The notes beneath the pieces were generated by a model. That model searched no databases, was not told the DNA's origin, and was given only the letters and a program-made list of their open reading frames with translations. This document shows, one piece after another, positions 43,987-45,726 of a stretch of 46,940 nt of DNA. Source of the stretch: Salegentibacter sp. (lineage in GTDB: Bacteria > Bacteroidota > Bacteroidia > Flavobacteriales > Flavobacteriaceae); assembly GCA_024635795.1 (NCBI GenBank), contig JAGXIH010000018.1, positions 1 through 46,940 of the forward strand, in the 5' to 3' direction. The position numbers were made by a program, and so were the translations under genes. Positions within the stretch are counted from its first letter, which is position 1; every line of letters begins with the position of its first letter.

Positions 43987-45726
43987 ATGGGGGCAAATTC
44001 AACTCATAAAAACAACTCCTTAAATTACGGAAAAGTTATTTCGGTAAGGGGAAGCGTTGTGGATGTATGGTTTGAAACTAAGTTGCCTTCTATTTTCACC
44101 TTGCTCCACACCGGAGAAGAAAAGGAAATTGCAATTGAAGTATTGGCGCAAATTGACTCAAACCGCATTCGGGGAATTGCATTAACTGCCACCCAGGGAT
44201 TAGCGCGTGGAATGCGGGTTGAAACAGATGGAGAACAGCTTAAAGTTCCCGTTGGAAAAAAAATCCTGGGCAGGATGTTCGATGTTTTTGGAAACACGAT
44301 AGACCACGATGAAAAAATATCGGAAGTGGTGTGGCGTAATATTCACCAGGAACAACCCCCATTAACGAAACGATCCACAAAATCTGAAATTTTCCTGACT
44401 GGAATTAAGGCGATCGATATCCTTATTCCATTGGAACGAGGCGGAAAGGCTGGTTTATTTGGAGGAGCAGGGGTAGGGAAAACCGTTTTGCTTACAGAGA
44501 TGATCCATAATATGGTTGGTCATGGCAAGGGGGTGAGCATATTTTGCGGAATCGGGGAACGTTGCCGGGAAGGACATGAGCTTTATAATGAAATGAAAGA
44601 AGCCGGTGTTCTTGATGATATGGTGATGATGTTTGGACAAATGAATGAACCGCCGGGAGCTCGTTTTCGTGTTGGCCATGCGGCTTTAACAATGGCCGAA
44701 TATTTTAGGGATGATGAGTTCCGGGATGTGTTGTTGCTCATTGATAATATTTTTAGGTTTATTCAGGCAGGGATGGAAGTTTCCGGCCTGATGGGTCAAA
44801 TGCCTTCCCGGTTGGGATATCAACCCACAATGGAAACAGAACTCGCCAAACTGGAAGAACGTATCGCCAATACCGATGCGGGAGCAATTACATCTATCCA
44901 GGCCGTTTACGTTCCTGCCGATGATCTAACCGATCCGGCAGCAGTACATACTTTTTCACACCTTTCGGCATCGATTGTTCTTTCCAGGAAAAAAGCCAGC
45001 GAAGGCTTATACCCGGCTATAGATTTGTTGCAATCCAATTCAAAAATGGCTACTCCAGGAATTATTGGGCAAAGACATTATAATCTAGCACAGGAAATTA
45101 AGCAAACCCTTGCGCAGTATGAAGACCTTAAGGATATTATTGCAATGCTGGGGCTGGAACAATTATCTACCAACGATAGGAATCTTGTAAATAGGGCAAG
45201 ACGTTTAGAACGATTTCTCACCCAGCCATTTTTCACTACTGAACAATTTAGCGGGATTGGTGGAAAATACGTCAGTTTAAAAGAAGCACTTGATGGTTGT
45301 GAACGCATTCTTTCAGATGAGTTTAAAGATCTGCCGGAAAGTGCGTTTTACATGATCGGGACTATTGAGGAAGCTCAGGAAAAAGACAAGAAAAATAAGG
45401 AAAAGGAGAAAGATTCCAGTTCTGAAAAAGAAAAGGATTCCGAATCAGAAAAAGAGGAAAAATCAGATTCTGAAAAAGAGCAAAAGGGCGAAGCTAAAAA
45501 AGAGAAAACATCAGATTCCGAAAAGGAGAAAAAATCCGACTCTGAAAAAGAGCAAAAGGACGAAGCTAAAAAAGAGAAAACAACAGACGCCGATAAAAAG
45601 CAAAAATCAGATTCCGAAAAGGAGAAAAAATTCGACTCTGAAAAAGAGCAAAAGGGCGAAGCTAAAAAAGAGAAGAAAGCAGATTCCCAAAGGAATAAAA
45701 AACCAAAATCTGTAAAGTCAACATAA
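43987..45726 (+). CDS. atpD: N-type F-ATPase beta subunit with a long Lys/Glu/Ser-rich C-terminal tail
   Basis: 579 residues. The core (about 14-465) is a normal F-ATPase beta subunit: barrel start [16 protein letters not shown], Walker A GGAGVGKT (159-166), catalytic Glu191 in GIGERCREG, Walker [11 protein letters not shown], and [12 protein letters not shown]. The DELSEED position reads EQLSTND. The operon order atpD-C-Q-R-B defines the N-type (alternative) F-ATPase, described as ion-pumping and often acquired by transfer. Residues from about 466 to 579 are an added tail of octapeptides such as [16 protein letters not shown] and AKKEKTSD, predicted to be disordered. Usual beta subunits end near residue 470. 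Confidence 0.95.
45421..45695 (+). repeat. Coding tandem repeat, 24-base period
   Basis: About 11-12 imperfect copies of a 24-base unit encode the octads [80 protein letters not shown] and AKKEKKAD. Higher-order units exist: SEKEQKxE-AKKEKxxD occurs three times, spaced by one or two other octads. Confidence 0.85.

Follow-up and report, generated by a model that had tools for sequence, protein, structure and literature searches.

An octapeptide-repeat tail on an N-type ATPase beta subunit of Salegentibacter as an extreme case of a frequent C-terminal extension

The beta gene and its repeat tail

The window (the whole stretch of 46,940 nucleotides analysed, from a contig of Salegentibacter sp.) showed at its right end the first part of an N-type ATPase operon, as read from the list of open reading frames (ORFs) and from profile searches (Table 1). 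The source genome was a 1.98-Mb draft in 29 contigs with 61.58% completeness. Genes for beta, epsilon, Q and R followed the N-type order beta-epsilon-Q-R-a-c-b-alpha-gamma given in passages of PMC11738941 and PMC4154653, and the contig stopped within a. For atpR, an ATG slightly inside the ORF was the likelier start over the listed TTG. In the Salegentibacter flavus DSM 17794 operon (locus L078), the ORFs were read as beta, epsilon, Q, R, a, c, a b of 260 aa, alpha and gamma, with alpha starting two bases after b and no ORF in between. Passages of the same two sources describe the delta gene of N-ATPases as absent or fused with b, and b as carrying a long C-terminal extension, which is put at more than 100 aa in PMC4154653. 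A passage of PMC11738941 adds that an N-type ATPase typically accompanies an F- or A-type ATPase; in the source genome, a second, housekeeping-type beta was found on contig 26, where two segments with 56% and 44% identity share a single 505-aa frame. The gene sets and ion specificity of N-ATPases are among the subjects of PMC11738941 and the rotor ring is among those of PMC5376962. The S. flavus N-type subunit c (L078, 13295-13561) had Glu in both helices (GEG; EST..Y), a two-carboxylate pattern.

Table 1. Features of the N-type ATPase operon at the right end of the window
Feature	Position	Strand	Evidence or remark
atpD ORF, N-type ATPase beta	43987-45726	+	open frame, 579 aa
atpD core, including the C-terminal stretch shared with housekeeping betas	43987-45411	+	TIGR03305
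Neck past the FYMIG motif, with a Lys/Glu-rich stretch	45361-45420	+	resembles L078 and L071 in alignment
Octad array, 12 x 24-bp units = 12 octapeptides, last degenerate	45421-45708	+	Tandem Repeats Finder, periodicity
Distal end SVKST and stop	45709-45726	+	SVNSK in L078 and L071
atpC, N-type epsilon	45738-46142	+	NF004871 186.3 bits (cut-off 135); TIGR03166 154.6 (cut-off 100.1)
atpQ (ATPase_gene1)	46147-46503	+	TIGR02230 132 bits (cut-off 46.7)
atpR	46493-46816	+	PF12966 95.5 bits; TIGR03165 92.9 bits
atpB (subunit a), start only, contig ends inside	46800-46940	+	read beside the L078 operon

The preliminary description of this DNA had named the gene an N-type beta with an intact core, and this was confirmed by a score of 848.6 bits against TIGR03305 over residues 15-463, above the curated cut-off of 752, and by the conserved columns, with the P-loop GGAGVGKT invariant across a 35-row alignment. 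Among solved chains, the whole beta matched best (546.6 bits) to a hybrid F1 whose core domains are ancestral. Past FYMIG, the last conserved core motif, the protein continued in frame for 121 residues. The tail had been placed at 45382-45726 with about 114 residues; the length agreed, since 45382-45723 encodes exactly 114 aa, while the part that is extra amounted to about 104 residues (45412-45723) because housekeeping betas also extend 15-18 residues past the motif.

The octapeptide repeat described earlier was likewise recovered. Amino-acid identity at lag 8 was 0.465 compared to 0.189 in shuffled tails (z 7.9), with none of 2000 shuffles as high, and the same held for lags 16, 24, 32 and 40. 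The octads were of the types SEKEKKxD, SEKEQKxE, AKKEKxxD and others, with Ser or Ala in column 1 of 12/12, Lys in column 3 of 11/12 and Glu in column 4 of 10/12. Tandem Repeats Finder (TRF) produced five overlapping arrays within 45400-45702 with periods of 24, 48, 72, 96 and 96 bp. At period 24 the matches were 67%, so the units were not identical, and exact repeats within the array reached 38 bp at most. The 72- and 96-bp periods scored above the 24-bp period, which suggests growth in three-octad and four-octad blocks. The array copy number could be off, the genome being a draft. A second open frame, shifted by one base (45365-45715, TTG start), overlapped the array and was regarded as a side effect of an A-rich repeat with few stops. 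A search of the tail protein against its own genome (61.58% complete) gave itself as the single match at E ≤ 10, and a search of the tail against solved chains gave no match at E ≤ 0.01.

Tails of close relatives and of N-type betas in general

Two close relatives with a similar neck and a SEKE-based 8-residue unit, S. flavus and the Flavobacteriaceae MAG 5_8_m_bin19 (L071), both had beta directly before epsilon and shared the end SVNSK. Their tails differed in length from the window tail with its 121 residues and twelve units: S. flavus had 49 residues and 3.7 of the 24-bp units, and the MAG had 31 residues with one to two units by eye. Core identity to the window was 98% and 97% respectively, so that the variation in repeat number among related strains, which had been proposed as a check, was found on near-identical cores. 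Net charge of the tails was +1 for the window, -2 for S. flavus and 0 for the MAG. At DNA level, S. flavus matched the window over 38001-45412 at 93.2% and over 45709-46940 at 87.6%, with the gap between them corresponding to the array, and the MAG matched over 43778-45434 at 91.2% and over 45705-46940 at 88.1%. All three clustered on the core tree with branches of about 0.02 and a support of 83, and the fork was drawn open. Since near-identical cores and flanks carry tails of different length, the comparison indicates that the array length changed recently and in frame. The 31/49/121 series on such cores is a ready-made experiment on the effect of the tail. The beta of locus L004 was the same as that of S. 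flavus, and in another genome of the genus (G001) the beta tail and the preceding 200 residues were the same as in S. flavus.

Upstream of the MAG operon, positions 1-5800 of the locus had no match to window 38001-43777 despite the 88-91% identical operon, which places the operon in different surroundings. An N-type beta was found in 2/15 genomes of the genus (E ≤ 1e-150), and in 8/397 genomes drawn from the family and 3/395 drawn from the class (E ≤ 1e-165), the source genome being included in all counts. The different surroundings and the presence in 2/15 genomes would fit a mobile operon. Plasmid-borne N-type-like beta genes were found in 14 records, five of which were opened, including cyanobacteria, Hymenobacter and one conjugative-typed plasmid (Roseicitreum).

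Tail length was counted as residues after the F/LYMxG motif. From 151 loci, 150 were usable (L149 was dropped for its open end), and removal of 14 duplicates left 136 distinct betas, which were classed by identity to the window core as N-type (at least about 58-60%; 112 betas) or housekeeping (at most 48%; 24 betas, all from the order of the window). A further seven N-type betas raised that class to 119. One of the searches behind the survey contributed its 80 best out of 476 relatives confirmed, so the survey leans to close relatives. The 119 N-type betas had a median of 31 residues past the motif (quartiles 20.5 and 36, range 7-121), with 93 above 18, 21 above 40 and six above 60, while all 24 housekeeping betas ended at 15-18. 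The first 112 N-type betas differed from the housekeeping betas in length (Mann-Whitney p = 3e-6, relatedness ignored). The window tail was the longest, followed by tails of 89 and 67 residues. The remaining 26 N-type betas had 18 residues or fewer; they included Picosynechococcus sp. PCC 7002, with 8, and a 10-row group of the window's phylum had 7-20 residues (mostly 7-13, one 20). Such short-tailed betas show that there is no N-type-wide need for a tail. As a wider control, the window beta matched 58 distinct solved beta chains, whose tail lengths are approximate as reckoned from alignment ends; 48 had 18 residues or fewer and ten had more (20, 20, 20, 30, 30, 31, 32, 32, 55 and 87). The longest extensions were about 87 (6rd4) and 55 (9vkp), and none of the ten was N-type by name. 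Beta extensions outside the N-type are thus present but exceptional.

The preliminary description knew of no described N-ATPase beta with such a tail; that a tail of this kind is singular did not hold, since 93/119 N-type betas exceeded all 24 housekeeping betas. An alignment in which most N-type betas carry the same tail had been named as a refutation; tails proved common, but they were not the same tail, so this refutation applies in part. Pairwise identity was mostly 0.1-0.2 beyond about 8 residues past the motif. N-type beta tails are therefore a common, fast-changing class to which the window tail belongs, and what is special here is the length and the octad. The window tail looks like a recent stretching of a common, little-noticed feature and not something wholly new. 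No described N-type beta tail was recognised in the open-access literature, judged from titles and abstract openings, and the N-ATPase passages of PMC4154653 name no beta extension. The window tail is a real, extreme case of a frequent trait for which no description was found.

Composition was similar over unrelated tail sequences. For the 81 N-type tails that continue for 12 residues or more past position +12, the medians were a net charge of 0, a charged fraction of 0.31 and a hydrophobic fraction of 0.08; the final 60 residues of the core had a hydrophobic fraction of 0.37. Charge content tended to rise with tail length (Spearman 0.29, p 0.008) and charge imbalance to fall (-0.25, p 0.02), with relatedness ignored in both; an exception was the 89-residue tail of L123, with a charged fraction of 0.21 and a hydrophobic fraction of 0.19. 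A variable, mostly hydrophilic and near-neutral beta tail in several phyla is a concrete difference between many N-type heads and F-type heads.

Repeats were also found in other tails. TRF called arrays in 11 of 92 tail DNAs, namely the window, S. flavus (24-bp units), L079, L097, L074, L139, L105/L107 (a shared tail), L143, L116 and L156; these runs had no shuffled control, and the weak arrays (scores of 48-54; L139, L105/L107 and L116) may be due to chance. L074 also had a listed period of 22 bp and L004 one of 8 bp; these non-triplet periods were read as alternative fits to the same arrays. The amino-acid periodicity shuffle test was positive (p ≤ 0.01) for 6/38 tails, with 0.4 expected: the window, S. 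flavus, L074, L097, L143 and L156. Beyond the Salegentibacter pair, well-supported repeats with different units were therefore present in four tails, those of Methanosarcina sp. UBA293 (L143), Taibaiella (L097), Bacteroidales fen_976 (L074) and a Hymenobacter psoromatis plasmid (L156). Their units (18/36, 30, 45 and 15 bp respectively) differed from that of the window, and their tails were of 37-63 residues, but the best units were multiples of 3 bp as in the window. Their composition also differed from that of the window tail, the Hymenobacter tail being Pro/Ala-rich. Tail repeats appear to have originated on more than one occasion. A comparable case is that of the amino-acid tandem repeats (aaTRs) of Borgs, which are described in parts of PMC9879509 as coding repeats with unit lengths in multiples of three, giving rise to regions that are predicted to be disordered, and as enriched in Pro, Thr, Glu and Lys and nearly free of Cys, Trp and Phe; both traits were counted as likenesses to the window tail. 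According to the same parts, Borgs are archaeal extrachromosomal elements with aaTRs in many proteins each, whereas the window has one such protein in a bacterial genome.

At the distal end, 17/56 LYMIG-type betas (17/119 over all N-type) ended with H[ED][SAT], at 26-61 residues after the motif. By subset this was 17/31 in named genomes, 0/22 in the further genomes of the window's phylum and 0/3 on plasmids. Inside 112 tails the pattern occurred four times. The form HES closed 11/119 N-type betas, mostly proteobacterial and with tails of different length (L105, L107, L112, L117, L121, L124, L129, L135, L139, L140 and L142), and HDA, HET and HEA gave the rest of the 17. In 27 LYMIG tails from named genomes, identity was 0.34, 0.34 and 0.49 at the last three residues and 0.45 at the seventh-last, with other positions mostly at 0.1-0.2, while in 32 FYM-type tails it was 0.07-0.17 throughout the ends. 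The window tail did not have the motif. The pattern hints at a possible short linear motif, tethered in those lineages, which shared descent could explain alone.

Physical state and selection

The window tail had a charged fraction of 0.65 with a net charge of +1 over its 121 residues, and past +12 it was 2% hydrophobic. Charges were well mixed, with a kappa (own implementation) of 0.053 compared to 0.117 in shuffled tails and 4 of 300 shuffles as low. Similar results were obtained for L071 (4 of 300) and L097 (0), a weaker one for L077 (23), and tails of L004 (71), L079 (52), L073 (170) and L074 (83) were no better than their shuffles. In an ER/K single alpha-helix, opposite charges stand at i/i+4 along the chain. 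In the window tail, like charges prevailed at this spacing (28 like and 15 opposite pairs), which disfavours such a helix, and opposite charges prevailed at i/i+3 (25 opposite and 17 like). The KEKE rule asks for at least 12 residues with more than 60% K plus D/E, no W, Y, F or P and no run of five like charges; the longest stretch of the window tail that obeys it was 90 residues, which denotes a composition class and not a homology family. Binding of nucleic acid, one of the roles offered in the preliminary description, was made unlikely by the near-zero net charge and even mixing; the spacer and assembly roles also offered there are possible. Taken together, the net charge, mixing and i/i+4 pattern make a swollen coil more likely than a single alpha-helix or a nucleic-acid binder, with disorder predicted from composition alone. 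A structure prediction from the 35-row alignment had a mean pLDDT of 48.6, with the core poor too, and was uninformative on the tail.

Among units 1-11 the pN/pS was 0.35, with one hydrophobic residue in 88, and over all 12 units it was 0.41. Neutral simulations of units 1-11 were run with transition weights of 1, 2, 4 and 8. A star-shaped simulation gave a mean pN/pS of 0.60-0.96 and 5.1-8.3 hydrophobics, and runs as low as observed were 0, 1, 6 and 8 of 400 for pN/pS and 0, 5, 6 and 11 of 400 for hydrophobics. A second simulation copying an assumed duplication structure gave means of 0.63-1.05 and 5.1-7.9, with 5, 14, 44 and 92 of 1000 runs as low on pN/pS, 23, 35, 62 and 90 as low on hydrophobics and 0, 2, 9 and 18 as low on both. 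This is moderate, model-dependent support for purifying selection on the units which keeps the tail hydrophilic and does not keep its precise sequence.

Explanations of the tail

The somewhat favoured explanation is that the tail is a disordered, charge-balanced and length-tolerant hydrophilic extension of an N-type beta, expanded by tandem duplication. The array would have grown from a shorter tail as 24-bp units and 72/96-bp blocks were duplicated, and the well-mixed charges of this strong polyampholyte would keep it a swollen, soluble coil. F1 heads contain three betas, with the beta C-terminus on the membrane-facing side of the head. Three tails would then hang from this side as a solvated skirt, which may keep the head soluble and spaced from the membrane, the stator or neighbours. 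Selection would hold the tail hydrophilic and near neutral and tolerate a wide range of lengths, leaving slippage or unequal exchange free to lengthen it.

Drift is the main and a serious rival, possible although on balance doubted. It holds that the tail is a near-neutral by-product, in which slippage-prone, purine-rich DNA expands at a tolerant, exposed C-terminus and aggregation-prone variants alone are purged. The fourfold length variation among betas with 97-98% identical cores, the 26/119 N-type betas with no extra tail, the poor conservation beyond about 8 residues past the motif and the ten of 58 solved chains that exceed 18 residues with none N-type by name are all as drift would have it. 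However, the C-terminus should be equally exposed in housekeeping betas, all 24 of which stop at 15-18 residues, and in the 48/58 solved chains at 18 or fewer. The recurrence of a hydrophilic, near-neutral composition over unrelated tail sequences and the purifying signal at unit level also speak for the hydrophilic extension and against drift. An artefact of assembly, with the repeat number inflated by the assembler, is suggested by the incomplete draft in 29 contigs and is scarcely credible, since the units differ, the longest exact repeat is 38 bp and both S. flavus and the MAG have the SEKE-based unit at the same place and in the same frame.

A latch that gates ATP hydrolysis, with the tail or the end of it extending as far as the rotor or c-ring, is improbable. 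The precedent is the C-terminus of mycobacterial alpha, which according to parts of PMC8698299 docks in gamma and suppresses hydrolysis. Like the window tail it is a C-terminal extension on a head subunit, but it lies on alpha instead of beta and is a defined gamma-binding peptide, with no repeat mentioned in those parts. The H[ED][SAT] end in 17 of 31 LYMIG-type betas from named genomes is what a tethered motif would give, yet none of the other 25 LYMIG-type betas nor the window tail has it, and shared descent alone could account for it. In addition, the mycobacterial contacts with gamma are partly hydrophobic in the same parts of PMC8698299, against 2% hydrophobic residues in the window tail past +12. 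Even less probable is a structured binder, either a rigid single alpha-helix or a KEKE-type helix that docks protein, nucleic acid or membrane. The 90-residue KEKE stretch, the excess of opposite charges at i/i+3 and a low-confidence helix at residues 535-567 of the poor model point that way; they are opposed by the like charges at i/i+4, the reverse of an ER/K helix, by a net charge that gives little drive toward nucleic acid or anionic lipid, and by Ser, Ala or Asp in 12/12 units. A role in preventing the mixing of N-type and housekeeping heads was also considered, and the tailless N-type betas speak against it as a general role.

A wider and rather doubtful proposal is that the tail of the main N-type clade may be a functional disordered linker, which in a mostly proteobacterial set ends with H[ED][SAT] tethered to a partner, and whose reach would be tuned by repeat number. 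If true, the tail would add to rotary ATPases an adjustable element not described so far, and one that most F-type betas lack.

Finally, at the other end of the window a tRNA gene was identified at 317-390 (Rfam RF00005, 70.2 bits), followed by a tandem array at 374-621 with a period of 113 bp and 2.2 copies. The 113-bp copies contained a piece resembling the tRNA 3' end and a terminator-like hairpin.
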